Shown here piece after piece: positions 41,851 to 58,919 of a stretch of 64,000 bases of DNA (the first letter of the stretch is position 1; each line of letters opens with the position of its first letter). Position numbers and translations under genes: made by a program. The stretch comes from Dechloromonas sp. (lineage in GTDB: Bacteria > Pseudomonadota > Gammaproteobacteria > Burkholderiales > Rhodocyclaceae): assembly GCA_011391255.1 (NCBI GenBank), contig JAABQV010000002.1:1-64000 (forward strand). Direction: 5' to 3'. The notes beneath the pieces are model-generated. The model worked only from the letters and a program-made list of their open reading frames with translations, had not been told where the DNA came from and did no database searches.

Positions 41851-43200
41851 ATGGCTAAAAATCGTACCCTGCTGCTGTTCAATTTCGACTGGGATGCCGA
41901 GGGCTTTTCCCGCCACAATGGGCAGCACGATTTCGACAATGCCGGATTTGACCTCTTCAGTTTCCCGAGTAACGCCCACCTCCTGCACTTTCAGATGTCG
42001 CCGTTTGTTGAGCGACTGGCCAGGGTGGCGCTCAAAAAAGGGTGGCGGGCCGTCACCTCCTGCCACGAGCAATTTGGTGCCTTGGCTGCCGCGCTGCTCG
42101 CCGAACGCATGGGCTGGCCGGGCACCAAACCCGAAGCCGTGCTCGCCTGCCAGCACAAACTCTACGCCCGGCAGATTCTCGAGCAAGTTGCGCCCGAGGC
42201 CAATGTGGCGCACGGTCTGATCGATGCCCGATACGGTGCTCCGGTACCGGACGGCCTGCCCTACCCGCTTTTTGCCAAGCCGATCAAAGCCGCGTTCTCG
42301 GTACTCGCCAAGCACGTTGCCAATCACGACGAATTAACTGCCCACACGCGCTTTGGCTGGGGCGAACGCTGGGTTATCGAGCATCTGGTCGAGCCTTTCG
42401 AGCGCATCGCCCGCCAGCGCCTGCCATCAGCCAGCAGTGCCCACCGGCTGATGTGGGAAGCCCCGGTCAAGGCCGAACAATTTAATCTGGATGGCTACGT
42501 TTTCGAGGGCAAAGCGCACGCCATCGGTGTTGTTGATTCAATCATGTACCCCGGCACTCAAGCCTTCATGCGCTTCGACTACCCAAGTCTGTTGCCCGAT
42601 CCGATCCAGGCTCGCGCCCTCGATATTGCCGCTCGCTTCCTGAAAGCGGTTGGCTTTGATCACGGCCTGTTCAATATGGAATTTTTTTACGATGCGGCGA
42701 GCGGCCGGCTGACTGTCATCGAATTCAACCCACGCCTCGCTTCGCAGCTGGCTGATCTTTATCGCCGCGTCGAAGGCCTTGATCTCTACGCCATGGCGCT
42801 GAATCTGGCCTATGGCCAAGACCCTAGAACTGCGCCGCGTCTTGCCCCCAGCGCCGGTGCCGCGTCGAGTTTCGTTTTCAGGCATTTTGACCCGTTGACC
42901 GCAGCCAAGATGCCGACGCCAGCCCAACTCAGCGACTTCCAGAAACACTTTCCAGACAATCTGCTGCTGCGCTTCCCGAAAGACATCAAATCGCTGGCGC
43001 GCGACTACAAATGGCTGGGCAGCCACCGTTACGGCGTCATGCACCTCGGCGGGCGCGACGCCACTGACCTCGAGCAACGCTGTCGCGCCGCCAGCGCCCA
43101 ACTCGGCTGGCCGGCGCCCTATGCGGAACAAAGCGTTACAAACTGCCACCAAGCGCCATGCTATTTTGCCCGGCAATCCACCGCCGGAGTCGCCCCATGA
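41851..43200 (+). CDS. ATP-grasp domain protein
   Basis: 449 aa from MAKNRTLLLFNFDWDAEGF. The track's longer start at 41722 lies upstream of the -10. ATP-grasp features are LACQHKLYARQILEQ, PLFAKPIKAAFSVL (Lys of the ATP site), the acidic metal site in FNMEFFYDAASGRLTVIEFNPRLA and a terminal QLADLYRRVEG. It should form an amide or ester bond from ATP, but substrate and partner are unknown. It overlaps the YHS gene by ATGA and leads an ATP-grasp-YHS-YkgJ operon. Confidence 0.85.
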   Translation: MAKNRTLLLFNFDWDAEGFSRHNGQHDFDNAGFDLFSFPSNAHLLHFQMSPFVERLARVALKKGWRAVTSCHEQFGALAAALLAERMGWPGTKPEAVLACQHKLYARQILEQVAPEANVAHGLIDARYGAPVPDGLPYPLFAKPIKAAFSVLAKHVANHDELTAHTRFGWGERWVIEHLVEPFERIARQRLPSASSAHRLMWEAPVKAEQFNLDGYVFEGKAHAIGVVDSIMYPGTQAFMRFDYPSLLPDPIQARALDIAARFLKAVGFDHGLFNMEFFYDAASGRLTVIEFNPRLASQLADLYRRVEGLDLYAMALNLAYGQDPRTAPRLAPSAGAASSFVFRHFDPLTAAKMPTPAQLSDFQKHFPDNLLLRFPKDIKSLARDYKWLGSHRYGVMHLGGRDATDLEQRCRAASAQLGWPAPYAEQSVTNCHQAPCYFARQSTAGVAP

Positions 43201-43775
43201 AATCCCTGTTCGCTGCCATTATTCTTGTCTTGACTCTCAATGGCTGCGCGATGATCGCCCAGAATCCCGGCCAGAAATACAGCCCGGTCAACGCCACTGC
43301 CGAAGATGGCGCCCCGCACCTGATGCTCAAGGGGCACGATGTCGTTGCCTACTTCACGAAAAACACCCAGCTGATTGGCAAACCCGAATTCAGCAGCCGC
43401 TATCAGGATGTCGATTTCCGCTTTGCCAGCGCCGAACACAAAGCCCTATTCGATCAAGCGCCTGAAAAATACCTGCCGCAATTCGGCGGTTATTGCGCCA
43501 ACGGTATCGCCTACGGCATCCCCTGGGGTGGCGATGCCGATACCTGGCTGATGATTGATGGCAATCTCTACATTTTTGGCGGGCAAGGCTCCAAAGACGC
43601 CTTTGAGCTCGACCCCGCCGGCAATCTCGCCCTGGCCAATAAATACTGGACTGAAGAAATCGCCGGCAGCAACAGTTTCATTCAGCGCAGCAAGCGTCTG
43701 ATCTTCCGCGTTCCGCATTACAAGAGTGGCGATGATTTGAGCAAAGAAATCGCCGCCAAAAAGGCCAAAGGCTGA
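43197..43775 (+). CDS. YHS-domain lipoprotein
   Basis: 192 aa from MKSLFAAIILVLTLNGC, lipobox Cys17. Residues about 45-120 are a YHS-type metal-binding domain (GHDVVAYFTKNTQLIG, DVDFRFASAEHKALFDQAPEKYLPQFGGYCA). The C-terminus is ordinary. Free-standing YHS lipoproteins are probably periplasmic copper or iron binders, a guess here. The start overlaps the ATP-grasp stop and its own stop overlaps the CTG start of the next gene. Confidence 0.85.
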   Translation: MKSLFAAIILVLTLNGCAMIAQNPGQKYSPVNATAEDGAPHLMLKGHDVVAYFTKNTQLIGKPEFSSRYQDVDFRFASAEHKALFDQAPEKYLPQFGGYCANGIAYGIPWGGDADTWLMIDGNLYIFGGQGSKDAFELDPAGNLALANKYWTEEIAGSNSFIQRSKRLIFRVPHYKSGDDLSKEIAAKKAKG

Positions 43776-44216: not shown

Positions 44217-44495
44217 TCAAGCCGCCGCCTTGACCGCATCCGGGTTCTGCGACGCAATGCGCAGCAAGGTTTTTGCTGCACCTGAAGGCTCTCGCCGCCC
44301 CTGCTCCCAGTCCTGCAAAGTGCGTACTGAAACACCGAGCAAGTGGGCGAACTCGCTTTGCGACATGCCAACACGGTTGCGCGCTTCTGTTGCAGCAGAT
44401 ACTTCGACAGTCGTTATCCGCACCGCCTTACTTGTTTTCATCTGGCGAACAGAAGCCAGTAGATCGTTTTGAAATTCTTCCAGCTCTTTATCCAC
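44217..44495 (-). CDS. XRE/HTH antitoxin, NadS/HigA-like
   Basis: 92 aa. The C-terminal half holds a helix-turn-helix (GMSQSEFAHLLGVSVRTLQD followed by WEQGRREPSGAA) typical of NadS/HigA-type antitoxins. It should neutralise the RelE-like toxin encoded just upstream, which it overlaps by 8 nt, and autorepress from the palindrome before the toxin gene. Confidence 0.88.
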   Translation of the reverse strand: MDKELEEFQNDLLASVRQMKTSKAVRITTVEVSAATEARNRVGMSQSEFAHLLGVSVRTLQDWEQGRREPSGAAKTLLRIASQNPDAVKAAA

Positions 44496-44799
44496 GCACC
44501 ACCTCCGCTTTCAGTTTTGCCAGAAACTCGGCTGGCAGGTTATCGAACTTGGCTTTTGCGTAGGCAATCAGCAACCAGATTCGTCCATCCAGCACGTTGA
44601 AATAAATCACCCGAGCACCGCCACGCTTTCCCATACCAGAACGACTCCATCTGACTTTCCGGCAACCGCCCGATCCGGGAATTACATCACCCGCCAACGG
44701 ATTAGCAGCAATCCACTGGATAAATTCGAGACGTTCGCTTTCTGACCAGATGGATGTAGCGTAACGCTGGAATATCTCAGTTTCGGCAACGGTGTGCAT
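44488..44799 (-). CDS. RelE/HigB-like toxin
   Basis: 103 aa from MHTVAETEIFQRY. The six extra residues of the track ORF overlap the palindromic operator. RelE-superfamily features: LEFIQWIAANPLAGDVIPGSGGCRKVRWSRSGMGKRGGARVIYF. These are ribosome-dependent or free mRNA endonucleases. The toxin gene precedes the antitoxin gene, the HigBA order. Confidence 0.88.
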   Translation of the reverse strand: MHTVAETEIFQRYATSIWSESERLEFIQWIAANPLAGDVIPGSGGCRKVRWSRSGMGKRGGARVIYFNVLDGRIWLLIAYAKAKFDNLPAEFLAKLKAEVVRG

Positions 44800-44809
44800 G
44801 AGCAAATAA

Positions 44810-44824
44810 TACGGCAATGCCGTA
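44810..44824. promoter_or_regulatory. Palindromic operator of the RelE/XRE pair
   Basis: TACGGCAATGCCGTA is a 7-bp-arm palindrome 11 bp upstream of the toxin start, the expected place for autoregulation by the antitoxin. Confidence 0.6.
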
Positions 44825-44864
44825 CATTGTCAATCGACAAATAGCGAAGTGAAAAGCGAGCGGT

Positions 44865-44883
44865 AAATAGGGGACCACGGTTT
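44865..44883. repeat. REP-like half element, copy B
   Basis: AAATAGGGGACCACGGTTT matches one arm of the elements at 44159 and 58933. The inverted partner arm is missing here, so this is a solo arm between two toxin-antitoxin modules. Confidence 0.65.
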
Positions 44884-44905
44884 CAAGGTCGCCAGAGAAA
44901 GAGGA

Positions 44906-45121
44906 TTAGCCAGCGGCCTTTTCGAGCAGAGCAAGGCCGGTTTCGGTTTGAGCAGCACCACGAGCGGCACGAATCTGGAAACGGGTTTCTGCGTCGAACT
45001 CAGTGAGCATCAGGGTCGTCATTTCATCAATAAGACGATTTAGCGGCGTACCACGGCTTTTGGCAAGCGCCTTGAGACGGCGATGCTTTTCATCTGGTAA
45101 ACGAACGGTCAAGGCGGTCAT
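44906..45121 (-). CDS. RHH-type antitoxin partner of the PIN toxin
   Basis: 71 aa from MTALTVRLP with an AGGAG site. It has the CopG/Arc ribbon-helix-helix pattern (TVRLPDEKHRRLKALAKSRG followed by TPLNRLIDEMTTLML). It starts 2 nt after the PIN toxin stop, so toxin comes first, which is the reverse of the usual vapBC order. Expected to bind the PIN protein and its own promoter. Confidence 0.8.
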   Translation of the reverse strand: MTALTVRLPDEKHRRLKALAKSRGTPLNRLIDEMTTLMLTEFDAETRFQIRAARGAAQTETGLALLEKAAG

Positions 45122-45123
45122 GG

Positions 45124-45540
45124 TCAAAGCTCCTTCAAAAAATCTTCTGGCGAAACAACTCTCAGTTGCGGAAAGCGTAGTTCCATCCGCTGCAGGTCGC
45201 GCAGATTTCGCGTGACAATGAATTCAGCACCCCCGGCAATTGCCAGTTCGACCAAATGATTGCCGCCTTCGTCGGGCAAATTGGGTCGCCATGCGTAATA
45301 GACTCTCACCCACTCGGCTTTGGACAAGAAAACATCAAGCAAGGTTTGCTGCTCTTGTTCACTAAGCAGCGACTTGATCAACAAGGCATCGCGCCCGAGC
45401 ACATCTTCGTATTCAGCAAGTAATGCCGCGCCCATCAACGGTGTGAATTGCCCACGCAAACAGGCCGCTATCGTCTGATTTGCCGCGCCTTTGCCAAGGC
45501 AGGCACCGAGAAATATATTGGTATCAATCACTGCTCTCAT
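45124..45540 (-). CDS. PIN-domain toxin
   Basis: 138 aa from MRAVIDTNIFLGACLG. The longer track ORF runs through the IS30 relic. The acidic ribonuclease residues are visible: Asp in VIDTN, Glu in LLAEYEDVLG, Asp in NLPDEGG and the last TRNLRDL. The COG1569-like group are VapC-type nucleases cutting RNA. It should be neutralised by the RHH protein encoded next. Confidence 0.85.
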   Translation of the reverse strand: MRAVIDTNIFLGACLGKGAANQTIAACLRGQFTPLMGAALLAEYEDVLGRDALLIKSLLSEQEQQTLLDVFLSKAEWVRVYYAWRPNLPDEGGNHLVELAIAGGAEFIVTRNLRDLQRMELRFPQLRVVSPEDFLKEL

Positions 45541-45604
45541 AGTTTTTATGGTGTCAAAAACGCCACCTAAAACAAAGGCCATCAAGCACTGAATAATAGG
45601 GGGC

Positions 45605-45951
45605 GGCCTCAAATATGAAGTGCAACACGCACTGGGAAGTAAAGTGTTGCGATGGAAACGACCTACAAAAATTTGAGTTGTGAAGAACGAACGATGATCC
45701 AACTGAGTCTTGAGCAGGAAATGCTGCGATCTGAGCTCCTGCCTTACGTAGCAAGCGTCAAGATTGAGATCAAACCCGAAGGGTTGCCAGACATTCGTGA
45801 CGCTGATGACATTATTTCTTTGGCACTCGCTGCAGTTGGCCGTGCCGATGCACTGGTCAGGGGCGACGGTGACATTCTGGCAGTTAAAACGCAGTTTCAC
45901 ATTCCCACCCCAACCATCGTCAAGTTGCCTAACTGGCTTCAGGCGTACTGA
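45605..45951 (+). pseudogene. IS30 transposase N-terminal relic fused to a PIN-domain remnant
   Basis: The ORF at 45652-45951 begins METTYKNLSCEERTMIQLSL, the N-terminus of IS30-family transposases, preceded by an IS-end-like GCAACAC...GTGTTGC (45622-45650). After about 22 codons the reading frame continues as the C-terminal half of a PIN domain (PDIRDADDIISLALAAVG, then ADALVRGDGDILAVK). The transposase body and the PIN N-terminus are both missing. The chimera probably arose by an IS insertion and deletion in an older PIN gene. It is unlikely to be functional. Confidence 0.72.
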
Positions 45952-46915: not shown

Positions 46916-47875
46916 ATGGCAGCTAAGCGCCAACCTCGTCTGATCAATCGCAAAGCTGCCGAGGCTGCTGGGCAGCGCGACGAATTGGCCGCCGGGCTGC
47001 TGGCGCCAGCCGCGCATATTTCCCCCAAGTTCCTCTACGACTCGCTGGGTTCGCGACTATTTTCAGCAATCACCGAAGTCGAGGAGTACTACCCGACACG
47101 CACCGAAGCTGGAATTTTCATTAGCCACGCCGACCAGATCGCAGCCAGTATCGGCCCCGGCTGCACTTTGGTCGATCTCGGTGCCGGCGACTGCGCCAAA
47201 GCCCGCAAGCTGTTCCCGACTCTCAAGCCGGCGCGCTATGTGGCGGTCGACATTTCCGTCGATTTTCTCGCTGAGTCGCTCGATTACCTGCAATTTCGCC
47301 ACCCGGAGATGGACATCACCGGCCTCGGTTGCGATTTTTCCAGCCAGCTCGACTTGCCCGATGAAATTGGCGAAAGTCCGCGTGTGCTGTTTTACCCCGG
47401 CTCCAGCATTGGCAACTTCACCCCCGATCAGGCGCTGGATTTTTTGCGTCAGGCGCGCGCTGCCAGCCAGGGCGGCGGTCTGCTGATCGGCATTGATCTG
47501 GTCAAATCGCAAACCATCCTCGACGCCGCATACGATGACGCGCTGGGTATCACCGCGGCCTTCAATCTCAACCTGCTGAATGCGGTCAACCGGCAATTAG
47601 GCGCCAATTTTGAAGTTAGCAATTTCCGCCACATTGCCTTTTTCAATGCCGAACAAAGCCGGATTGAAATGCACCTCGAAGCCCGCCACACCAACACCGT
47701 GACCTGGCAGGGCGGCGAGCGCTGTTTTGTTGCTGGCGAGCGCATCCACACAGAAAATTCGTACAAATACACGGTTGACCGTGCGAATTCATTGCTCAAC
47801 GCCGCCGGCTTTCGCTTTACCCGCTGCTGGACGGATGAAAAAGGCTGGTTTGCGCTGTTTTGGGCAACGGACTAA
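46916..47875 (+). CDS. egtD: L-histidine N-alpha-methyltransferase EgtD
   Basis: 319 aa from MAAKRQPRLINRKAAE (AGGA site 9 nt upstream). EgtD-family layout: SPKFLYDSLGSRLFSAIT, LVDLGAGDCAKARKL (SAM motif), FYPGSSIGNFTPDQA and FRHIAFFNAEQSRIEMHLEA. It trimethylates histidine to hercynine, the shared precursor of ergothioneine and selenoneine. It is followed 13 bp later by a VTT membrane gene and then by the convergent senA, consistent with selenoneine synthesis. Confidence 0.95.
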   Translation: MAAKRQPRLINRKAAEAAGQRDELAAGLLAPAAHISPKFLYDSLGSRLFSAITEVEEYYPTRTEAGIFISHADQIAASIGPGCTLVDLGAGDCAKARKLFPTLKPARYVAVDISVDFLAESLDYLQFRHPEMDITGLGCDFSSQLDLPDEIGESPRVLFYPGSSIGNFTPDQALDFLRQARAASQGGGLLIGIDLVKSQTILDAAYDDALGITAAFNLNLLNAVNRQLGANFEVSNFRHIAFFNAEQSRIEMHLEARHTNTVTWQGGERCFVAGERIHTENSYKYTVDRANSLLNAAGFRFTRCWTDEKGWFALFWATD

Positions 47876-47888
47876 AGCGTAACGAATC

Positions 47889-48584
47889 GTGCCTAAAACC
47901 GTCCTTTTCCTTGCCATACTTGTCGCCGCCGCCACTGGCTGGTGGTTGCTGGATCTCGGCCAGATCGGTTGGCTAGCCGGTATTCAGCAAATGCAGTTGC
48001 AATTTTCCGAGATTTTCCAGCAGCACCCGATATCCGTTGTTTGCGCATTTTTCGGCATTTTTACACTCAGCGCGGCGTTAGCCATTCCGGGTGCTTCAAT
48101 TCTGATGCTGATCGCTGGCGCCAGTTTTGGCTTGTTTTGGGGCACCGCCCTGTCGCTCTTTGCATCAACCACCGGCGCGACGCTGAGCATGCTGGCCGCC
48201 CGCCATTTTTTACGCCCGCAAGTTGAGCGCAGCGTCGGCCATCGGCTGAGCGGCATCAATGCTGGCCTCGCCCGCGACGGCGCACTCTACCTTTTCAGTC
48301 TGCGTATGGCACCACTGATTCCATTCATCATCCTCAACCCGGCACTCGGCCTGACGCAATTGAAAACCTGGACATTTTTCTGGGTAAGCGCCATCGGCAT
48401 GCTGGCTGGCACTGCGGTTTACGTGAATGCCGGGCGTGAGTTGGCAATGCTCACCAGCCCGGCGGATATTCTCTCGCCCAGCCTGATCGCTGCGCTGGCA
48501 ATGATCGGGCTGCTGCCGCTGCTGGCGAGCAAACTGACTCGAAGCCTGCGGCCGGCAATGGCAACTAAAGCGAACAACTCCTGA
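47889..48584 (+). CDS. TVP38/TMEM64 (VTT-domain) membrane protein
   Basis: 231 aa, GTG start. It has the VTT fold: hydrophobic helices, IPGASILMLIAGASFGLFWG with the conserved G(x)G turn, and SLRMAPLIPFIILNPALG. The C-terminal WVSAIGMLAGTAVYVNAG is nearly the same as the N-terminal module of the flavin oxidoreductase at 52918, so the two are paralogues. VTT proteins move lipids or metalloid-related substrates, exact role unknown. The 3' end overlaps senA by 20 bp. Confidence 0.88.
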   Translation: MPKTVLFLAILVAAATGWWLLDLGQIGWLAGIQQMQLQFSEIFQQHPISVVCAFFGIFTLSAALAIPGASILMLIAGASFGLFWGTALSLFASTTGATLSMLAARHFLRPQVERSVGHRLSGINAGLARDGALYLFSLRMAPLIPFIILNPALGLTQLKTWTFFWVSAIGMLAGTAVYVNAGRELAMLTSPADILSPSLIAALAMIGLLPLLASKLTRSLRPAMATKANNS

Positions 48585-49770
48585 AACCAGCGAAAATATC
48601 GTTGCGCTCCGGCGTGAAGTAATTGCGATAACGCGGGTGGCACATGCGCGCTGTTGTCGCATGTGAGGCACCGCGCAAGACCGGGCGGCCATCGAACCAG
48701 GCGCGTGAATAGTCGCGATAGGGATGCGCGACAAAACCAACAAAAGGCGAAAAGGCACTCGCCGTCCATTCCCAGACCTGCCCCCAATTGAAAGCATCAT
48801 GGCAAGTCAGCGCTGCCATCTCCCATTCCGCTTCACTGGGCAAACGCCGCCCGGCCCAGCGGCACCAGGCTTCGGCTTCAAAATAGGTGAGGTGGGTTGC
48901 GGTTTGGTCGGCGGCCAAATCCTGACATTGACCAAAATATTGTTGCTGCCAGCCTGCCCCGGCTTTACGCAAATAACGCGGATGTGACTGAGCGTGGATT
49001 TGCCGCCAGGCCCAGCCGGCCTTTGACCAATAGCGCGCATCATCGTAACCGCCAGCCTCGACAAACGGCAGGTAACGCCGCCAACTGAGCGGCTGGCTGT
49101 CGATGGCGAATGGTGCAACGCGCACCGCATGCGCCGGCAATTCGTTGTCAAAGGAAAAGCCGGGTTCGCTGGCCCCGAGCTGCCATTCACCACCGGTTAC
49201 GGTCAACTCGTTATTTGCGGGCGAATTAGGCTGCACCGGGAGGCCGAGCGGAATGCTCAGGTTCTGCGCCATGTACACCCAGGCCTCGCTGTGCATGTCT
49301 TCGTGGACAATCGCCAGTTTGAAAAAGTAGAGGTCATCATCACCTTCGCCCGAGGCATCGAGCAGCTCCAGCGTCTGCGTCCGCACTGCCGCCAGATAGG
49401 CCAGCGTACCCTCGGCGTCCGGTAACGGCAGCGTCCAGCGGCGGTTGTGCGCCACTTGGCCAGAGTTATAAAAACTGTCCGCCCCCGGCAACCAGGAATC
49501 CGGACGTCCCGCCTCGGGGTCGGCGGTATTACCCAGCAAGCGTTGCGGATTGCGCGCCAGCCAGAATTCCTCAAACCAGCCGATGTGGCCGATTTCCCAC
49601 AAGGGCGTGTTGAGCTCCAGCGAATACGGCACCAGCAAACCCTCGCCCAAGGCCTGATGATAGGCCTTGAAACGTTCCATCATGGTTTGCCGGCTGTCCG
49701 CCAAGGCTGTTTTGAGTTCGCTCCGCCCGGCCTGACGGAAGTGCTTGTCGCCGCAAATTGTCGTGTCCAT
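48565..49770 (-). CDS. senA: Selenoneine synthase SenA (EgtB homologue)
   Basis: 401 aa from MDTTICGDKHFRQAG. The track GTG two codons earlier is possible. An N-terminal DinB-like iron-binding domain (WEIGHIGWFEEFWL and HEDMHSEAW supply His ligands) is followed by an FGE-sulfatase-like domain (VTGGEWQLGASEPGFSFDNE, and WTASAFSPF...RVLRGASHAT in spirit). EgtB and OvoA share this design. SenA rather than EgtB is indicated by the adjacent senB, divergent across only 23 bp. It should couple a selenosugar to hercynine. Confidence 0.85.
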   Translation of the reverse strand: MDTTICGDKHFRQAGRSELKTALADSRQTMMERFKAYHQALGEGLLVPYSLELNTPLWEIGHIGWFEEFWLARNPQRLLGNTADPEAGRPDSWLPGADSFYNSGQVAHNRRWTLPLPDAEGTLAYLAAVRTQTLELLDASGEGDDDLYFFKLAIVHEDMHSEAWVYMAQNLSIPLGLPVQPNSPANNELTVTGGEWQLGASEPGFSFDNELPAHAVRVAPFAIDSQPLSWRRYLPFVEAGGYDDARYWSKAGWAWRQIHAQSHPRYLRKAGAGWQQQYFGQCQDLAADQTATHLTYFEAEAWCRWAGRRLPSEAEWEMAALTCHDAFNWGQVWEWTASAFSPFVGFVAHPYRDYSRAWFDGRPVLRGASHATTARMCHPRYRNYFTPERNDIFAGFRSCSL

Positions 49771-49793
49771 TAGCACATGCTATAACACTCGCC

Positions 49794-50753
49794 ATGCCAA
49801 GTCAGCCCTCCCTTTGCCTAATTACGCCGGCACTCGCCGACGCCCGCAATGGCAACTGGCAGACCGCCAAACGTTGGGCCAAGATGCTCAGTGAGCATTT
49901 CACCGTGCGTCTGATGAAAACCTGGGATGGTGTTCCCGCTGATTTGATGATTGCCCTGCACGCCCGCCGCTCGGCCGATTCCATTGCCGCCTGGGCACAG
50001 GCGCTGCCGGATCGCCCGCTGATTGTTGCGTTGACCGGCACCGACCTTTACCGCGACATCATTACCGATGCCAGTGCTCAACACTCGCTGGAACTGGCAC
50101 ACCAGCTGATCGTCTTGCAGGAGTTAGGGCCCATGGCCTTGCCGGCGCACTTGCGGCACAAATGCGAGGTGTGTTTTCAGTCCACTTCTCGCCGTCGACC
50201 GCAACAAAAAACCGCGCGCCATTTGCGCGCGCTCGCCGTCGGCCATCTGCGCGATGAAAAATCACCGGAAACTTTTATCGGCGCCGCTCGCCAGCTTCAA
50301 CAATACCCGGATTTATGGTTTGACCATATCGGTGGCTGCCTGGAAACAGCGCTATGCGACGAAGCACAGCTACTCGCCGCTAGCAATCCACATTACCGCT
50401 GGCTAGGGAATTTGCCGCACCACATCGTCCGCCAGCGCATCAGCCGCGCGCACCTGCTGGTGCATCCCAGCCGCATGGAAGGTGGCGCGCATGTCGTCAT
50501 GGAGGCGATTGCCAGCGGCACGCCGGTGCTGGCCTCGCGCATTGATGGCAACATCGGAATGCTGGGCGCTGACTATGCGGGCTATTTTGAACATGGCAAG
50601 GTTGCTGAATTAGCTGATTTGATAAGTCGCTGCCGCCGCGAGCCGCGATTTCTGGCTCATCTAGAGGCCCAATGTGCCGCCCGCGCACATCTGTTTGAAC
50701 CAGAACACGAACGTAGCACTCTGATTCGTATTACGAATCAACAGTTTTCCTGA
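49794..50753 (+). CDS. senB: Selenosugar synthase SenB (TIGR04348-like glycosyltransferase)
   Basis: 319 aa from MPSQPSLCLITPALADARNG. It matches the GT-B family known as SenB: NGNWQTAKRWAKML, DLMIALHARRSADSI, VALTGTDLYRDI, VGHLRDEKSPETF and AHLLVHPSRMEGGAHVVMEA. In the established selenoneine pathway SenB uses selenophosphate and a UDP-sugar to make a 1-selenosugar. The selenophosphate source (SelD/SenC) is not in the window. It diverges from senA and runs into the arsS operon. Confidence 0.92.
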   Translation: MPSQPSLCLITPALADARNGNWQTAKRWAKMLSEHFTVRLMKTWDGVPADLMIALHARRSADSIAAWAQALPDRPLIVALTGTDLYRDIITDASAQHSLELAHQLIVLQELGPMALPAHLRHKCEVCFQSTSRRRPQQKTARHLRALAVGHLRDEKSPETFIGAARQLQQYPDLWFDHIGGCLETALCDEAQLLAASNPHYRWLGNLPHHIVRQRISRAHLLVHPSRMEGGAHVVMEAIASGTPVLASRIDGNIGMLGADYAGYFEHGKVAELADLISRCRREPRFLAHLEAQCAARAHLFEPEHERSTLIRITNQQFS

Positions 50754-50766
50754 AGCGTTGTAAGGA

Positions 50767-50800
50767 AAGTCCTGCCTGCTGCGACTAATCGGCAGGACTT
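50767..50800 (+). promoter_or_regulatory. Perfect 10-bp hairpin between senB and arsS
   Basis: AAGTCCTGCC pairs with GGCAGGACTT across 14 nt and ends 1 nt before the GGAGAAAG binding site of arsS. There is no T-tract. It may end the senB message or control arsS translation. Confidence 0.55.
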
Positions 50801-50812
50801 ATGGAGAAAGCA

Positions 50813-51871
50813 ATGTTAGATACTTTACCGCTGTTATTAAAAACTGATTTTCCGCCGCTTCGTCGAGCGCGCCTGACCACCCTCCAAGCCAACCTCGGCT
50901 ATCGTTGCAACCAGGCTTGCCTGCATTGCCATGTCGCCGCCAGCCCCAAGCGCACCGAGGAAATGTCGTGGGAAACCATGGCGCTGATGCTGGAATTCGC
51001 CGCGCATCAGGGCATCCGCCAATTTGACCTGACCGGCGGCGCGCCGGAACTCAACCCGAACTTTCGCCGCCTCACACTTGCTGCCCGTGCGCAAGGCATC
51101 GCCGTCATTGATCGTTGCAACCTGACCATCCTGAGCGAGCCGGGGCAGGAAGATTTAGCTGATTTTTTGGCTGAAAACCAGGTTGAGGTTGTTGCCTCAA
51201 TGCCTTGCTACCTCGAAGAAAACGTCAATCGCCAACGCGGCGACGGCGTGTTTGAACGCAGCATTTCCGGGCTCAAGAAACTCAACGCACTTGCTTATGG
51301 CTTGCCGGGTAGCGAACGGGTGCTGAATCTGGTCTACAACCCCGGCGGCTCCAGTCTGCCGCCCGACCAGATCAAGCTCGAAGCGGCCTACAAAACCGAA
51401 TTGGCGACGCGCTACGGCATTGTTTTCAACCACCTGTTCGCGCTGGCCAACATGCCGATTCAGCGTTTCGGTAGCCAACTGCTCTCCAGCGGCCAGTACG
51501 AACCTTACATGGCGCTACTCAAGGGCGCGCACCGTGATGACAATCTCGACGGTGTGATGTGCCGCTCGCTGATTTCAGTCGGCTGGCAGGGCGAGGTTTT
51601 TGACTGCGATTTCAACCAGATGCTGGGTTTGCCGCTCGGAGCAAGCCATTCACGCGCAAAACCACTCCCTCTCCACCAACTTGTTGGGGGAGAGGGCCGG
51701 GGAGAGGGGGCGCCTTTAAAACCGGTGCACCTACGCGAGCTTGTTACGGTCAACCTCGAAAATCGCCCTATTTTTATTGCCGACCATTGCTACGGCTGCA
51801 CCGCCGGGCAGGGCAGCAGCTGCGGTGGCGCGCTTGAAGCCTCGGCCATTGAGGAAAATACGCATGCATGA
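50813..51871 (+). CDS. arsS: Arsenosugar-type radical SAM protein ArsS
   Basis: 352 aa from MLDTLPLLLKTDFPP (GGAGA site). The radical SAM motif CNQACLHCH is preceded by LQANLGYR and followed by DLTGGAPELNP. The C-terminal cluster HCYGCTAGQGSSCGGAL is the Cys-rich family domain (DUF3641). ArsS acts after ArsM, adding 5'-deoxyadenosyl to methylated arsenic on the way to arsenosugars. Residues about 283-302 (KPLPLHQLVGGEGRGEGAPL) appear extra compared with the family and arise from an in-frame palindromic insertion. The stop overlaps arsM. Confidence 0.9.
   Translation: MLDTLPLLLKTDFPPLRRARLTTLQANLGYRCNQACLHCHVAASPKRTEEMSWETMALMLEFAAHQGIRQFDLTGGAPELNPNFRRLTLAARAQGIAVIDRCNLTILSEPGQEDLADFLAENQVEVVASMPCYLEENVNRQRGDGVFERSISGLKKLNALAYGLPGSERVLNLVYNPGGSSLPPDQIKLEAAYKTELATRYGIVFNHLFALANMPIQRFGSQLLSSGQYEPYMALLKGAHRDDNLDGVMCRSLISVGWQGEVFDCDFNQMLGLPLGASHSRAKPLPLHQLVGGEGRGEGAPLKPVHLRELVTVNLENRPIFIADHCYGCTAGQGSSCGGALEASAIEENTHA
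51667..51696 (+). repeat. In-frame palindromic repeat inside arsS
   Basis: CCCTCTCCACCAAC and GTTGGGGGAGAGGG pair over 14 bp with one mismatch and a 2-nt loop, followed by a second GGGGAGAGGGGG. This GA/CT-rich palindrome type is usually intergenic in proteobacteria. Here its length keeps the arsS frame open and adds a short low-complexity loop. Confidence 0.75.
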
Positions 51872-52910
51872 AATCGTCAAAGACTATTACGGCAACCAGT
51901 TGCAATCGAGTGACGACCTGCGCACTTCTGCCTGTTGCGATGTCGATGCCGTGCCGGCCTGGCTGAAAAAACTGCTGGCCCGCGTGCACCCCGAAGTGCT
52001 GGCGCGCTACTACGGCTGCGGCCTGGTCTGTCCGGAATTGCTTGAAGGCCTCCGAATTCTCGACCTCGGCTGCGGCTCGGGGCGCGATGTTTATGCGCTG
52101 GCGCAACTGGTCGGCCCGAATGGCCGGGTGGTCGGCGTCGACATGACGGAAGCCCAACTCGACGTGGCGCGCAATCACCGCGAACATCATCGCGATGCCT
52201 TCGGCCACGGCGAAAGCAATGTCGACTTCCACCTCGGCTACATTGAACGCCTGCACGAACTTGATCTGGAACCGGAGAGCTTCGATGTCATCGTCTCCAA
52301 TTGCGTGGTCAATCTCTCGCCTGACAAGGAAGCCGTACTGCGCGGCGTCTTTGGCCTGCTCAAACCGGGTGGCGAATTCTACTTTTCCGACGTTTATGCT
52401 GACCGTCGCGTGCCCGATGCAGTCAAAAACGACCCCGTGCTTTACGGCGAATGCCTCGGTGGCGCGCTTTACTGGAATGACTTTCTGAATCTTGCCAAAC
52501 AAGCCGGTTTCAGCGACCCGCGATTGGTTACTGACCGTCCGCTCGAGATCACCGATCCGGAACTGCTGCCGCGCGCCGGCGGCATTAATTTTCATTCGGC
52601 CACTTGGCGGCTATTCAAGCTCGACGGCCTAGAAAGTGCCTGCGAGGATTACGGCCAGGCGGTAATTTATCGCGGCAGTATTGCTGAACATCCGCATCGT
52701 TTTGTTTTCGACAAGCACCACACGATGGAAACCGGCAAGATCTTCCCGGTTTGCGGCAACACCTGGCGCATGCTGGCCGAGACGCGTTTGCGCGAACACT
52801 TTGAATTCATCGGCAATTTCGATCACCACTACGGCATTTTCGCCGGCTGTGGCAGCGACCTGCCTTTTGATCGCGAAAGCAGCGATCCCAAAGCCGGCTC
52901 TTGCTGCTGA
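51864..52910 (+). CDS. arsM: Arsenite methyltransferase ArsM
   Basis: 348 aa from MHEIVKDYYGNQ, overlapping arsS by 8 nt. Class I SAM methyltransferase with ILDLGCGSGRDVY (motif I) and VVGVDMTEAQLDV. The arsenic-binding cysteines of the family are present: SNCVVNLSP and GECLGGALYW, and the N-terminal SACCDVD pair. It methylates As(III) using SAM; in ArsM-ArsS pairs dimethylarsenite is the ArsS substrate. The C-terminus ends SCC. Confidence 0.9.
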   Translation: MHEIVKDYYGNQLQSSDDLRTSACCDVDAVPAWLKKLLARVHPEVLARYYGCGLVCPELLEGLRILDLGCGSGRDVYALAQLVGPNGRVVGVDMTEAQLDVARNHREHHRDAFGHGESNVDFHLGYIERLHELDLEPESFDVIVSNCVVNLSPDKEAVLRGVFGLLKPGGEFYFSDVYADRRVPDAVKNDPVLYGECLGGALYWNDFLNLAKQAGFSDPRLVTDRPLEITDPELLPRAGGINFHSATWRLFKLDGLESACEDYGQAVIYRGSIAEHPHRFVFDKHHTMETGKIFPVCGNTWRMLAETRLREHFEFIGNFDHHYGIFAGCGSDLPFDRESSDPKAGSCC

Positions 52911-52917
52911 GCGCGCC

Positions 52918-55062
52918 ATGAACCGTCAAAAACTGGGATTAGTCGGGCTGATTCTCGCCCTCATCATCGCCTACTTCGCCTTCGATCTTGGCCGTTACCT
53001 GAGCCTTGATTTCTTCAAGTCGCAACAAGCCGCCATTGAAGCTTACCGGGCGCAGCAACCATTGCTCGCAGCCGGCATTTTCTTCGTTATTTACGTCATC
53101 GCCACCGCCCTTTCGCTGCCTGGTGCTGCCTTGTTAACACTGGCAGGCGGTGCGGTTTTCGGGCTCTTCTGGGGGCTGATCATTGTTTCCTTCGCCTCGA
53201 CGATCGGCGCCACACTGGCCTTCCTGATGTCGCGCTTTTTGCTGCGCGACTGGGTACTCAAACGTTTCGGCCAGCGCCTGAAAACCATCGACGACGGCGT
53301 CCAGCGCGAAGGGGCGTTTTATCTGTTCACCCTGCGTCTGGTACCGGCCTTTCCCTTCTTTCTGATCAACCTGCTGATGGGTCTGACGGCGATGAAGGCG
53401 CGGACTTTTTACTGGGTCAGCCAACTCGGCATGCTGGCCGGCACGGTGGTCTATGTCAATGCCGGCACCCAGCTGGCGCAGCTTGATTCGCTGTCCGGCA
53501 TTGTCTCGCCCGGCCTGCTCGGCTCATTTGTGTTGCTCGGCATCTTCCCGCTGATCGCCAAAAAAATCGTCGATCTGGTCAAGGCGCGCAAGGTTTACGC
53601 GGCCTGGCAGAAGCCGGCCAAATTTGACCGCAATGTGGTCGTCATCGGTGCTGGGGCAGCAGGTTTGGTGACTTCCTACATCGCGGCAGCAGTCAAAGCC
53701 AAAGTCACGCTGGTGGAAAAACACAAGATGGGCGGCGACTGTCTGAACACCGGCTGCGTGCCCTCCAAAGCGCTGATTCGCTCGGCCAAGCTGCTGTCGC
53801 AGATGGCGCACAGCCAGCATTACGGCATCCACAGCGCCAAGGCCGAGTTCAATTTTGCCGAGGCAATGGAGCGCGTGCAACGGGTGATTCAGGATATTGC
53901 ACCGCACGACTCGGTCGAACGGTATACCGATTTGGGCGTTGAAGTCCTCGAAGCGACGGCCAAAATCGTCTCACCGTGGGAAGTGGACATCACCGACCAC
54001 AACGGCCAAACCCAGCGCCTGAGCACACGCAGCATCGTCATTGCCACTGGCGCGCGGCCTTTCGTGCCGCCGATTCCCGGGCTAAGCGAAGTCGGCTGCC
54101 TGACCTCCGACACTATTTGGAATCTGCGCGAATTGCCCAAGCGTCTGGTCGTGCTCGGTGGCGGGCCGATTGGCAGCGAGCTTTCGCAGACCTTCGCCCG
54201 CCTCGGCAGCCAGGTCACGCAAGTTGAAATGGCACCGCGCCTGCTGATGCGCGAAGACCCGGAAGTCTCCGAGCTGGTGATGCAGCGCTTCATCGCCGAC
54301 GGCGTCAAGGTGGCGGTCAATCATGCGGCGAAGCGTTTTGTCATTGAAAACGGCGAAAAAATCCTGATTGCCGAACACGCCGGGCAGGAAGTGCGCATTC
54401 CTTTCGACGAGGTGCTGGTCGCCGTTGGCCGCGCTGCCAATCTCAAAGGCTACGGGCTGGAAGAACTCGGCATTCCGGTCGGCAAAACGGTCGACACCAA
54501 CGAGTTCCTGCAAACCCGCTACCCCAACATCTACGCCGCCGGCGATGTCGCCGGGCCTTACCAATTCACCCACACCGCCGCCCATCAGGCCTGGTACGCG
54601 GCAGTCAATGCGCTGTTCGACCCGTTCAAGAAGTTCAAGGCCGATTACACGGTGATCCCCTGGGCGACCTTCACCGAGCCGGAAGTGGCGCGCGTCGGCC
54701 TGAACGAACTGGAAGCCAAGGAGAAAAACATCGCCTACGAAGCCAGCGTCTATGGCATCGACGATCTCGACCGCGCGATTGCCGATGGCGAGGCGCACGG
54801 TTTCATCAAGGTACTAACCGCCCCCGGCAGCGACCGCATCCTCGGCGTCACCATCGTCGGCGAGCACGCTGGCGACCTGATCGCCGAATACGTGCTGGCG
54901 ATGAAACAGGGCATCGGCCTTAACAAAATCTTGGGCACCATTCATATTTACCCGACGATGGCCGAGGCCAACAAATACGTCGCCGGGGTGTGGAAAAAGG
55001 CGAATGCGCCGAAGGGTCTGCTGGTCTGGGTTGAACGCTTTCACACTTGGCGGCGGGGTTGA
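52918..55062 (+). CDS. VTT membrane domain fused to a MerA-like flavin disulfide oxidoreductase
   Basis: 714 aa from MNRQKLGLVGLILALII. Residues 1-225 are a VTT membrane domain (SLPGAALLTLAGGAVFGLFWG, LRLVPAFPFFLINLLMG). Residues 235-714 are a pyridine-nucleotide disulfide oxidoreductase with VVVIGAGAAGLVT, the redox pair in GGDCLNTGCVPSKAL, VVLGGGPIGSEL and YAAGDVAG. Near the end IHIYPTMAEANK has Tyr where dihydrolipoamide dehydrogenase has the catalytic His before PT, similar to MerA. No vicinal C-terminal cysteines are seen. A metalloid or selenium reductase is plausible. The start is 7 nt after arsM. Confidence 0.88.
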   Translation: MNRQKLGLVGLILALIIAYFAFDLGRYLSLDFFKSQQAAIEAYRAQQPLLAAGIFFVIYVIATALSLPGAALLTLAGGAVFGLFWGLIIVSFASTIGATLAFLMSRFLLRDWVLKRFGQRLKTIDDGVQREGAFYLFTLRLVPAFPFFLINLLMGLTAMKARTFYWVSQLGMLAGTVVYVNAGTQLAQLDSLSGIVSPGLLGSFVLLGIFPLIAKKIVDLVKARKVYAAWQKPAKFDRNVVVIGAGAAGLVTSYIAAAVKAKVTLVEKHKMGGDCLNTGCVPSKALIRSAKLLSQMAHSQHYGIHSAKAEFNFAEAMERVQRVIQDIAPHDSVERYTDLGVEVLEATAKIVSPWEVDITDHNGQTQRLSTRSIVIATGARPFVPPIPGLSEVGCLTSDTIWNLRELPKRLVVLGGGPIGSELSQTFARLGSQVTQVEMAPRLLMREDPEVSELVMQRFIADGVKVAVNHAAKRFVIENGEKILIAEHAGQEVRIPFDEVLVAVGRAANLKGYGLEELGIPVGKTVDTNEFLQTRYPNIYAAGDVAGPYQFTHTAAHQAWYAAVNALFDPFKKFKADYTVIPWATFTEPEVARVGLNELEAKEKNIAYEASVYGIDDLDRAIADGEAHGFIKVLTAPGSDRILGVTIVGEHAGDLIAEYVLAMKQGIGLNKILGTIHIYPTMAEANKYVAGVWKKANAPKGLLVWVERFHTWRRG

Positions 55063-55064
55063 TC

Positions 55065-55799
55065 ATGAAACACGCACTAATTTTTGCCCTGTTTTCGGCG
55101 TTGACCGTAACCGTTAACGCCGAGCCGCTCTGGGTCGGCAAATTTGACGGCAAAACCGGCACCTTGCCGGCGGGCTGGAAATCGGAACGCCTCAGCGACA
55201 AATTCCCCGCCACCGAGTACAAGCAACGCAACTGGGATGGCGTCAATGCCATCGAAGCCACTGCCGTCAAAAGCATGGCGTTATTTGGCCGGACGCTGGA
55301 GGTCGATCTGGAGAAAACCCCCATTCTCTGCTGGCGCTGGCGTGTCGACGCGCCGCTGGTCAATGCCGATCTCAACACCAAAGCTGGCGATGACTACGCG
55401 GCTCGGGTTTACTTGACCTTCACCGTGCCACCCGAAGCGCTTGGTTTCGCCACCCGCACCAAACTCTCGCTGGCCCGCTCGATCTGGGGCCCGCAAGTGC
55501 CGGATGCGGCGCTCAACTACGTCTGGGACAACAAGCACCCGATCGGCACCCTTAAGCCCAATGCCTACACTGACCGCACACAAATGCTGGTGATCGAAAC
55601 CGGAGATGCCAAAGCCGGGCGCTGGGTCAACGCACGACGCAATATCGCCGAAGATTTCAAGCGTGCTTTCGCCGGCATCCCCGGCCGCCTGAGCGGCATG
55701 GCGCTGGCCAGCGACACCGACAATACCGGCGAAACAGCGCATGCCGGCTTTGCCGACTTCCACTTTGTCGCCGACAAGGAAGCCTGCGCGACGCCATGA
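55065..55799 (+). CDS. DUF3047 secreted protein
   Basis: 244 aa from MKHALIFALFSAL, signal peptide to about residue 20 (VNAE). The DUF3047 domain shows WRWRVDAPLVNADLNTKAGD, YAARVYLTF, LNYVWDNKHP and RWVNARRNIAEDFKRAF. These residues form a lectin-like periplasmic fold in this family, function unknown. The start is 2 nt after the oxidoreductase stop, and the gene ends overlapping the next by 4 nt, so it belongs to the same operon. Confidence 0.85.
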   Translation: MKHALIFALFSALTVTVNAEPLWVGKFDGKTGTLPAGWKSERLSDKFPATEYKQRNWDGVNAIEATAVKSMALFGRTLEVDLEKTPILCWRWRVDAPLVNADLNTKAGDDYAARVYLTFTVPPEALGFATRTKLSLARSIWGPQVPDAALNYVWDNKHPIGTLKPNAYTDRTQMLVIETGDAKAGRWVNARRNIAEDFKRAFAGIPGRLSGMALASDTDNTGETAHAGFADFHFVADKEACATP

Positions 55800-56476
55800 G
55801 TTTGAGCATCATCGTGCCGATGCTGAATGAGGAAGCCGGCATCGACGCAACGCTCGCCGCCGCCCGTGAACTGGAGGCCGAGATTATTGTGGTCGACGGC
55901 GGAAGCAGTGATAAATCTGTTGAAATTGCCAGCACCCTCGCCGATCAGATCGTGCCAGCCCCGCGTGGCCGGGCACGGCAAATGAATGCCGGAGCGGCAG
56001 TGGCACAAGGCGATGTTCTCCTTTTTTTGCACGCCGACACCCGTTTGCCAGCAACGGCAGATCGCCTGATTCTGGAGGCAATCAATGACGGGGCCGACTG
56101 GGGTCGATTCGATCTACGGATTAGCGGCAAATCCCGCTGGTTTCCCGTCATCGCAGCGTTTATGAACCAGCGCTCCCGACTAACCGGGATCGCCACCGGC
56201 GATCAGGCCATCTTCGTAAAATGCAGCGTCTTTGAGCAAATCGGCGGTTTTCCTGACTTGCCGCTGATGGAAGACATCGTCCTCTCGCAGCGCCTGAAGG
56301 CCGTGAGCCGCCCGGCCTGTCTGCGCGCCAAAGTCACCACCGCTGGCCGGCGCTGGGAGAAACACGGCATCCTGCGCACCATCCTCACCATGTGGTGGCT
56401 GCGCCTGCGCTTCTACTTTGGTGCCGACCCCCAACAACTCGCAATTGAATACGGCTATGCCCCAAACGCGCAGTAA
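55796..56476 (+). CDS. Arsenosugar-type glycosyltransferase, TIGR04283-like
   Basis: 226 aa GT2-type protein. LSIIVPMLNEEAGIDATL and IIVVDGGSSDKSVEIA form the nucleotide-sugar site, LFLHADTRLP contains the DxD-like metal motif, and GDQAIFVKCSVFEQIGGFPDLPLMED is the acceptor-site loop. This family travels with ArsM and ArsS in predicted arsenosugar clusters. It overlaps the next gene by 20 nt. Confidence 0.88.
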   Translation: MSLSIIVPMLNEEAGIDATLAAARELEAEIIVVDGGSSDKSVEIASTLADQIVPAPRGRARQMNAGAAVAQGDVLLFLHADTRLPATADRLILEAINDGADWGRFDLRISGKSRWFPVIAAFMNQRSRLTGIATGDQAIFVKCSVFEQIGGFPDLPLMEDIVLSQRLKAVSRPACLRAKVTTAGRRWEKHGILRTILTMWWLRLRFYFGADPQQLAIEYGYAPNAQ

Positions 56477-57086
56477 GCACTCGCCTATCAGCATCGCCAT
56501 CCTCTCCCGCGCCCCCGTTCCCGGCCAGACCAAGACGCGCCTGATTCCAGCGCTTGGCGCCGAGGGTGCCGCCGTTCTCCACCGCCGTTTTCTACACGCT
56601 GCGGTGCGCACCGCCCTGCAAGCCAATCTCGGCCCGGTAACCCTGTGGTGCACGCCCGATACCAGCCACCCTGAATTCGCTGCCTGCGCTGCACTCAGCC
56701 CGCTCACATTGCGCCAGCAAGCAGACGGCGATCTCGGTCAGCGCATGCTGGCCACAATTAACGGCCCCACCCTGATCATCGGCACTGACTGCCCCGCCCT
56801 CACCCCGCTTCATCTACAACAAGCCGCCAGCGCCCTTACCGAAAACGACGCCGTATTGATCCCCGCCGAAGATGGCGGCTATGTCCTGATCGGCCTGCGC
56901 CAGACTGAACCAGCCGTCTTTGCCGACATGACTTGGGGTTGCCCAACGGTGCTCGAACAAACCTTCCAGCGTCTGCGCAATACTGGCTTAAGCTGGCGCG
57001 AATTGCCGGTACTATGGGATGTAGACGAACCCGCCGACCTTACCCGCCTCTCCATCACCCACCCCGAATTGCTCAGATCAACATGA
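56457..57086 (+). CDS. Arsenosugar-type transferase, TIGR04282-like (DUF2064)
   Basis: 209 aa from MPQTRSKHSPIS. GT-A/nucleotidyltransferase-like fold: ISIAILSRAPVPGQTKTRLI (nucleotide loop), LIIGTDCPALTPLHLQQA and VLIPAEDGGYVLIGL. This DUF2064 protein usually pairs with the TIGR04283 protein in the same clusters and is thought to act on the sugar. Its product here is inferred. The stop overlaps the next gene start (ATGA). Confidence 0.88.
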   Translation: MPQTRSKHSPISIAILSRAPVPGQTKTRLIPALGAEGAAVLHRRFLHAAVRTALQANLGPVTLWCTPDTSHPEFAACAALSPLTLRQQADGDLGQRMLATINGPTLIIGTDCPALTPLHLQQAASALTENDAVLIPAEDGGYVLIGLRQTEPAVFADMTWGCPTVLEQTFQRLRNTGLSWRELPVLWDVDEPADLTRLSITHPELLRST

Positions 57087-58186
57087 AACGCCTCCTGCTC
57101 GCCGGTGCCGGCCACGCTCACCTTAACGTCATCCGTAATCTGGCCATGCAACCGTGGCCCGATGTCGAAGTCACGCTGATCTGCCCTTATCCGCGACAAA
57201 TCTACTCCGGCATGATCCCCGGCTGGATCGCCGGCCATTACACGCTAGACCAATGCGCCGCCCCGCTCGCCGGACTGGTTGAAAAAGCCGGCATTCGCTG
57301 GGTGCAGGACACCATCTGCGGCATGGCTGCCGAAACTGGTGCGGTCAACTGCCAAAATGCCGGGAAAATTGCCTACGACGTGATCTCCATCGATACCGGT
57401 GCACGTGTCGAAAGCAGTGCGCTGAGCCACAGCGGCGCCCCGCTCCTGCCGATTCGTCCGCTCGAGCAATTTGCCATTGGCTGGAAGAGTGCTGAGGCGG
57501 CGCTGATCGCTTCCGGTGCCGCACGCCTCGCCATCATCGGTGGCGGCGCCGCCGGCATTGAGCTGGCTTTGGCTATCGACTATGCGCTGCGTCGACATCT
57601 CCCAGCCGACAAAGTCTCTGTCGTTCTGGTCAGCAGCGGTGCGCTGCTCGGCGGCCATGCACCGGGGGTCATCAAGCGGGTGGAGAAATTGCTCAAATCG
57701 CGCGGCATCATCCAGCATGCCGGACGCGCCAGCGGTCACGAAGAAGGCCTGGTTCTCAACAGCGGCGAGCTGATCGCCTGCGATGGCATCATTGCTGCAA
57801 CCGGCGTCGCCCCACCAACCTGGCTCGCCACATCCGGCCTCGCCCTCTGCGAACGAGGCTTCATAGCCGTTGGTGATGGCCAGCAAAGCACCTCGCACAA
57901 AAACGTATTTGCCGCTGGCGATGTCTCTACACGCATCGATTCCCCACACGCCAAGTCCGGCGTCTACGCCGTTCGCGCCGGCCCGGTGCTGACCATGAAC
58001 TTGCAACAGGCGCTCAACGGACAAGAACCGACCAGCTATCAACCGCAAAAACGCAGCCTCTACCTGCTCGCCACTGGTCCTAAAGAAGCCATTCTTTCCT
58101 GGGGATCATTTGCAGCTGCTGGCGGCTGGGCGTGGACCCTCAAAGACTGGATCGACCGTCGTTTTATGGCGCAGTACCAGTCATAA
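57083..58186 (+). CDS. Free-standing FAD oxidoreductase of the N-terminal-to-SelD family
   Basis: 367 aa from MKRLLLAGAGHAHLNVIRNL. The typical GAGHAHLNVIR, SGMIPGWIAGHYTLDQC, AIIGGGAAGIELALAI and FAAGDVSTRIDSPHAKSGVYAVRAGP match TIGR03169, the domain often fused to the N-terminus of selenide,water dikinase. Here the protein ends after FMAQYQS with no SelD part. It resembles NDH-2-like quinone/NAD(P)H oxidoreductases. The selenium association plus its place at the end of the senB-arsS operon suggest it supplies or handles reduced selenium (inference). Confidence 0.85.
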   Translation: MKRLLLAGAGHAHLNVIRNLAMQPWPDVEVTLICPYPRQIYSGMIPGWIAGHYTLDQCAAPLAGLVEKAGIRWVQDTICGMAAETGAVNCQNAGKIAYDVISIDTGARVESSALSHSGAPLLPIRPLEQFAIGWKSAEAALIASGAARLAIIGGGAAGIELALAIDYALRRHLPADKVSVVLVSSGALLGGHAPGVIKRVEKLLKSRGIIQHAGRASGHEEGLVLNSGELIACDGIIAATGVAPPTWLATSGLALCERGFIAVGDGQQSTSHKNVFAAGDVSTRIDSPHAKSGVYAVRAGPVLTMNLQQALNGQEPTSYQPQKRSLYLLATGPKEAILSWGSFAAAGGWAWTLKDWIDRRFMAQYQS

Positions 58187-58328: not shown

Positions 58329-58604
58329 ATGATCCACTCTTTTTCATGCCTCGATACCGAGGCGCTTTTTCATAGTCAGGCAGTGCCGATGTTTCGGAAC
58401 ATCGAACGGGTGGCCCGACGCAAGTTACTGCAATTGCACGCGGCAATCGAACTGGCCAGCTTGAGGGTTCCAGGGAATCAGCTCGAAGCCCTCAAGGGAA
58501 ACCGCAAGGGGCAGCACAGTATCCGCGTCAACGACCAATGGCGCGTGTGCTTTGTCTGGCGGGAAGACGGCGCGCACCAAGTTGAAATTGTGGACTACCA
58601 CTAG
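58329..58604 (+). CDS. higB: HigB-like RelE-superfamily toxin
   Basis: 91 aa. The classical HigB pattern is visible: MIHSFSCLDTEALFHSQ, ARRKLLQLHAAIELASLRVPGNQLEALKG, and the C-terminal HSIRVNDQWRVCFVWREDGAHQVEIVDYH. HigB cuts ribosome-bound mRNA. The toxin gene precedes the antitoxin gene. The short leader carries the palindrome. Confidence 0.92.
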   Translation: MIHSFSCLDTEALFHSQAVPMFRNIERVARRKLLQLHAAIELASLRVPGNQLEALKGNRKGQHSIRVNDQWRVCFVWREDGAHQVEIVDYH

Positions 58605-58613
58605 GAGTTGAAT

Positions 58614-58919
58614 ATGGCTGAATTACTTGACGAAATCCATCCCGGCGAAATCCTGCTGGAGGACTTTATGAAGCCGATGGCTATCTCTGCCCGTCAGCTT
58701 GCGGCCGACATCGATGTATCGCCGAGCCGCATTAGCGAACTGGTGAACGGCCACCGCCCGGTTACGGCCGATACGGCGCTACGCCTCGGCTTGTTTTTCA
58801 GAATGGAACCACGTTTCTGGCTCAATCTGCAAACCGAGTACGACATACGGATCGCCGCTCGGACACTGCAAGATCGGATCGCGCCACGTATCCGTATTTT
58901 CCAACGGGTTGCAGCGTGA
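58614..58919 (+). CDS. higA: HigA-like XRE antitoxin
   Basis: 101 aa from MAELLDEIHPGEILLE, with AGGAG 6 nt upstream. The TTG two codons earlier is less likely. It has the VapI/HigA layout: HPGEILLEDFMKPMAISARQ, the HTH LAADIDVSPSRISELVNGHR and LGLFFRMEPRFWLNLQTEYD. It follows the toxin by 9 nt. Confidence 0.92.
   Translation: MAELLDEIHPGEILLEDFMKPMAISARQLAADIDVSPSRISELVNGHRPVTADTALRLGLFFRMEPRFWLNLQTEYDIRIAARTLQDRIAPRIRIFQRVAA

Follow-up and report, generated by a model that had tools for sequence, protein, structure and literature searches.

A selenoneine-type gene module and an arsenosugar-type operon joined end to end in a Dechloromonas lineage

In the senA-senB-senC cluster described from Variovorax paradoxus, the selenosugar synthase SenB takes UDP-sugars as its substrates (PMC10891094), whereas ArsS, the radical SAM enzyme of the arsM-arsS arsenosugar genes, adenosylates arsenic using SAM (PMC12159101); its biochemical characterization is reported in work cited by the latter source. 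Among promoters, that of Caulobacter sigma-F has the two-block form GTAACC-N16-CGAA (PMC3511200). A literature search returned no paper on joint selenoneine and arsenosugar gene clusters, and no answer to how arsenosugar-type operons are switched on. The stretch of DNA analysed here (the window, 64,000 nucleotides of a Dechloromonas genome, G000) carries genes of both kinds in the following order:

41851-43200, + strand: ATP-grasp-like gene (weak Pfam ATP-grasp matches, under the PF13535 cut-off)
43197-43775, + strand: gene of the YHS domain (seleno)protein family, here the Cys version (NF041384, 107 bits, cut-off 70)
46916-47875, + strand: egtD, histidine N-alpha-methyltransferase (TIGR03438, 375 bits, cut-off 291)
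47889-48584, + strand: VTT (DedA-like) membrane protein (PF09335)
48565-49770, - strand: senA, selenoneine synthase (NF041186, 506 bits, cut-off 420)
49794-50753, + strand: senB, selenosugar synthase (TIGR04348, 453 bits, cut-off 300)
50759-50788, + strand: ECF-sigma-type promoter motif TGTAAG-N17-CGACTAA, 5' of arsS (exact copy)
50813-51871 (listed ORF start 50801), + strand: arsS, radical SAM enzyme (TIGR04167, 427 bits, cut-off 300)
51864-52910, + strand: arsM, arsenite methyltransferase (solved ArsM 5evj, E=1.9e-102; NCBIfam cut-offs missed)
52918-55062, + strand: fusion of a VTT domain and a pyridine nucleotide-disulfide oxidoreductase with CxxxxC (PF09335, PF07992, PF02852)
55065-55799, + strand: DUF3047 protein (PF11249)
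55796-56476, + strand: TIGR04283 family glycosyltransferase (274 bits, cut-off 182)
56457-57086, + strand: TIGR04282 family (DUF2064, CofC-like) transferase (195 bits, cut-off 134)
57083-58186, + strand: TIGR03169 (Nterm_to_SelD) FAD oxidoreductase (349 bits, cut-off 310)

All of the genes named by the first-pass annotation are present at approximately the positions it gave, as judged by profile cut-offs, Pfam models and solved structures, and the gene set lies far beyond a chance gathering. Gene identities, like the promoter motif and the block of a congener described below, are read from the sequences themselves, and the enzyme activities of both modules are putative, assigned by family membership.

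The predicted SenA aligns over nearly its full length with the solved SenA 8k5i (E=2.5e-120) and keeps HxxxHxE; SenB aligns to a similar extent with the solved SenB 8k5u (E=3.4e-102) and retains the catalytic lysine (K158-equivalent) and EGGAHV. The genome encodes both a hercynine source (EgtD, in the block) and a selenophosphate source (SelD, outside the block at G000:C2, 426 bits in a profile search), and since selD is present elsewhere in the genome the selenoneine route can be complete. EgtD would make hercynine, SelD (unlinked in the window, linked in the congener G700) would supply selenophosphate, and SenB would form a selenosugar that SenA would then couple to hercynine. The selenium module begins 5' of the interval first annotated, with the ATP-grasp-like and YHS genes (41851-43775), which are placed in it because they recur beside sen genes in relatives. 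Of 77 family loci, 20 have an ATP-grasp gene no more than approximately 10 kb from senB and five have a YHS gene adjoining sen genes, and the two would be recurrent accessories of the selenoneine module. In the window, approximately 3 kb with toxin-antitoxin-like genes separates this pair from egtD. The single-sequence structure model of the ATP-grasp-like protein has a pLDDT of only 36; the gene may encode an extra step in selenoneine metabolism or lead to a product beyond selenoneine. An ATP-grasp-like gene, often with a YHS gene, stands by senA/senB in, for example, L223, L225, L236, L258 and L269, and further such loci are L274, L275, L276 and others.

In the arsenic module, ArsS carries the CxxxCxxC motif. 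ArsM scores under both NCBIfam cut-offs (169 versus 263 for NF008823; 88 versus 400 for NF038099, AsSugarArsM) and aligns with the solved ArsM structures 5evj and 4fr0, with three cysteines placed as expected; by these structures it is assigned to the general type, not to the curated arsenosugar type (NF038099). Its orthologues adjoin arsS in relatives, and the VTT-oxidoreductase fusion is recurrent in arsS loci. ArsM would methylate As(III), ArsS would attach a SAM-derived 5'-deoxyadenosyl group, and the TIGR04283, TIGR04282, VTT-oxidoreductase, DUF3047 and TIGR03169 proteins may serve later steps or redox and transport steps. In one genome with no arsS (G049, L224), the VTT fusion, DUF3047 and TIGR03169 genes adjoin senB-selD, a case suggesting that these three families may not be specific to arsenosugars. 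The arsS gene of the window also has an in-frame insert of approximately 24 codons (51647-51718), a short GGGGAGAGGG-type repeat (HQLVGGEGRGEGAPLKP), which sits between two profile-matched parts; the family profile does not have it.

The arsS and arsM genes overlap by 8 nt, the next two gaps are of 7 and 2 nt, and the remaining genes overlap by 4, 20 and 4 nt. The annotation had described linkage by overlaps or gaps of 2-13 nt from arsS onward; the overlaps and the 2- and 7-nt gaps hold, but the 13-nt gap belongs to egtD and its VTT neighbour. Counted from the end of senB, the listed ATG of arsS (50801) is 47 nt away, and position 50813, the likelier start (MLDTLP, with a Shine-Dalgarno-like GGAG, and also the start in G700), is 59 nt away. 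No clear terminator was found between senB and arsS, and with so short a gap on the same strand some read-through from senB into arsS is likely. The senA gene is transcribed away from the ars genes, and thus the block contains at least three transcription units. Toxin-antitoxin-like genes (RelE-like, PIN, and a HigA antitoxin with a small ORF preceding) are located at 44488-45900, in the sen part, and at 58329-58919, just past the ars operon.

Comparison of the window with G700, from the preceding gene to arsS, revealed two conserved blocks, TGTAAG-N17-CGACTAA, the only exact copy of which in the window is directly before arsS. Defined as TGTAAG, a 16- or 17-base spacer and CGAC or CGTC, the motif gives 55 matches in the upstream regions of 146 distinct arsS genes, and each other spacing gives 0-3; with near-duplicates more strictly removed, 53 of 143 distinct arsS genes have it upstream (shuffled controls approximately 0.04 or less). 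It also precedes accessory genes of the ars operon (VTT fusion, 10 of 75; DUF3047, 3 of 21), but almost never the sen-side genes (senB, 0 of 82; senA, 0 of 33; selD, 0 of 27; ATP-grasp, 0 of 14; egtD, 1 of 32), which points to separate control. Membership of the sen genes in the ars regulon was rejected on the absence of the motif before senA, senB, selD and the ATP-grasp gene. Sigma-70 promoters and terminators were also discarded as signals, their counts being no different from those of shuffles, as was the idea of an RNA element in the senB-arsS gap (fold z of -1.6 and no match in Rfam), the conservation there being explained by the two-block promoter.

The geometry of the motif resembles that of ECF sigma promoters, and a promoter of the ECF-sigma type, just past senB, probably drives the ars operon. 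A TIGR02943-family ECF gene (261 bits, cut-off 162) is found 3' of the ars genes in G700; genes of this type are linked to ars genes in G700, G020 and G813, and occur near arsS in 16 of 60 loci with full flanks. No ECF sigma gene was found in the block of the window. Because the motif and the linked TIGR02943 gene do not co-vary (no locus-by-locus association, OR 1.3), a sigma factor of this type is only hypothesized to read the motif. Going by the motif, bacterial arsenosugar-type operons would be turned on from an ECF-type promoter across many proteobacteria. The motif was absent from the first-pass annotation and, with the sen-linked ATP-grasp gene, is a new lead. The regulon is probably wider than arsenic: the motif also precedes a DUF692/DUF2063 gene pair in G020 (L210, 324 and 607-2357), and several copies lie between the sen and ars genes of G310, alongside MsrB and DUF692/DUF2063 genes (copies between sen and ars are at L236 15427-16903 and L237 10269-17221). 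In G049, egtD and the VTT fusion each have the motif upstream.

The annotation had offered, as one option, a single route drawing on the same sugar donors for selenium and arsenic. Common donors are argued against by the use of UDP-sugars by SenB (PMC10891094) and of SAM by ArsS (PMC12159101). A merged pathway with shared donors or products draws on gene order and on the TIGR03169 protein, which is found beside senB-selD in some genomes as well as in the ars operon. The TIGR03169 protein of the window, however, is of the ars type (49-61% identity versus approximately 37%), the two core pathways share no gene of the block, the motif points to separate control, and each module occurs alone in many genomes: ars genes co-occur without sen genes in the 80 closest ArsS loci, and sen genes occur without ars genes in nearly all family loci. 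A merged pathway is therefore hardly credible. Of the options raised, two pathways side by side is the one supported, by the occurrence of each module alone elsewhere and by the ars operon having a motif of its own; in a further option, a thiol or selenol derived from EgtD might aid arsenic methylation.

How often the two modules meet was estimated from genome samples. Among 250 genomes of the order, senB was over the cut-off in 70, arsS in 80 and both in 45, and senB genomes have arsS more often than expected (OR 7.5, kinship ignored); among 151 genomes of the family, both genes were found in 11 (odds ratio 2.1, P=0.10), and among 299 genomes of the phylum the window genome alone had both. 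A larger family sample of 384 genomes added 49 senB genomes, 34 of them with arsS, and overturned the impression from the first samples that the block is unique to the window genome. Altogether, senB and arsS are within 15 kb of each other in three of 89 distinct genomes having both, namely the window genome, G700 and G813, these close-pair counts being lower bounds since draft contigs hide some pairs; in G310 and G181 the distance is 31-32 kb. The joint block is thus as unusual as had been proposed. Random placement predicts 0.7 pairs closer than 15 kb in the 88 other genomes, where two were seen (P~0.15; P=0.05 for the family only), so that adjacency alone exceeds chance weakly. No senB was found near any of the 80 closest ArsS loci (0 of 80, within up to 10 kb per side). 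A plasmid origin was rejected, with senB on only three plasmids and arsS on 51.

The congener G700 has the order senA (divergent)-senB-selD-arsS-arsM-VTT fusion-DUF3047-TIGR04283-TIGR04282-TIGR03169-ECF sigma-ATP-grasp, its terminal ATP-grasp gene being 74% identical to that of the window. The proteins of the two blocks are 55-80% identical, the GC content is 72% in G700 versus 59% in the window, and the flanks differ, the flanking genes of the window being absent from the 50 kb read in G700. In phylogenetic trees the window and G700 are sisters for SenA (SH-aLRT 91) and ArsS (96), and fall within a clade of three for SenB (SH-aLRT 90). In G813, which belongs to another genus, the arrangement differs: arsS, an ECF gene, egtD, senA and senB lie inside 9 kb. 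Thus other genomes do keep sen and ars genes together, one colinear with the window and one rearranged. Elsewhere, ars-type accessory genes adjoin sen-selD in G728 and G049, and arsM does so in G257. Three other congeners (G111, G218 and G390) have neither senB nor arsS; in G218, other genes occupy the approximately 8 kb between the two conserved flanking genes, and thus the block occupies a variable site.

That variability among congeners, together with a close-pair count near the random expectation and the toxin-antitoxin-like genes within and beside the block, would suit a neutral juxtaposition, in which two horizontally mobile modules landed together with no functional link. The colinear block of G700, at 55-80% protein identity and with other flanks, and the sister positions in the trees argue instead that the joined block was inherited and not assembled by chance; by these sequence comparisons it appears old and kept as a unit in the lineage of the window and G700, and neutral juxtaposition is very improbable.

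The preferred reading, to which we give a probability of approximately three in four, is that two complete modules lie end to end, each under its own control, and that the pair has been kept in one lineage. Counted against it are the 47-59 nt gap, the lack of a sigma gene in the block, the absence of co-variation between the motif and a linked sigma gene, and the co-occurrence of senB and arsS (OR 7.5). A rival is one coordinated selenium-arsenic stress response, in which both the senB promoter and the ECF promoter would drive the ars genes, and the cell would produce selenoneine along with arsenosugar to withstand metalloid or oxidative stress. Such a response would agree with the short same-strand gap, with the contiguous, in-line senB-selD-arsS of G700, with the motif on both egtD and the VTT fusion of G049, and with the sen pair inside a metal-resistance region of a Hydrogenophaga plasmid; it is judged unlikely, given that the ars promoter motif is missing from sen genes almost everywhere and that adjacency is rare (three of 89 genomes). 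On that plasmid (Hydrogenophaga sp. BPS33, L337), the one of the three senB plasmids whose record was read, the senA-like/senB pair lies among genes for ArsR, an arsenic resistance protein, ChrA, MerRTP and copper, with no annotated arsS within 10 kb; such surroundings, in which arsenic, mercury, copper and chromate genes accompany senB, are in keeping with metal stress as a shared setting. About as unlikely is the idea that the genus has a true selenium-arsenic co-response locus, in which an ECF sigma factor, together with transcription running on from senB, would switch on both syntheses, selenoneine would protect the cell during radical-SAM and arsenic chemistry, and the ATP-grasp enzyme would tailor one product. 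The two adjacent modules may also bring the cell a common advantage when metalloids or oxidants stress it. The block is a defined place at which the natural-product pathways of selenium and arsenic come together.

Compared with known systems, the window resembles the Variovorax paradoxus cluster (PMC10891094) in its divergent senA and senB, full-length matches and conserved key residues, but its selD (senC) is unlinked, egtD, VTT, ATP-grasp and YHS genes are nearby, and an ars operon follows senB. Like the arsM-arsS arsenosugar genes, it has an ArsS over the cut-off, an adjoining ArsM, and TIGR04283 and TIGR04282 proteins, in an ars gene order common to many proteobacterial loci; unlike them, its ArsM falls outside the NCBIfam arsenosugar-ArsM type and sen genes are immediately upstream. 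The motif before arsS resembles the Caulobacter sigma-F regulon in its two-block promoter geometry and, in G020, in its position before a DUF692/DUF2063 pair, but the letters of its -35 and -10 blocks differ and the ars-linked sigma factor is of the TIGR02943 type. The locus combines two kinds already known, in a composite that one lineage has conserved.
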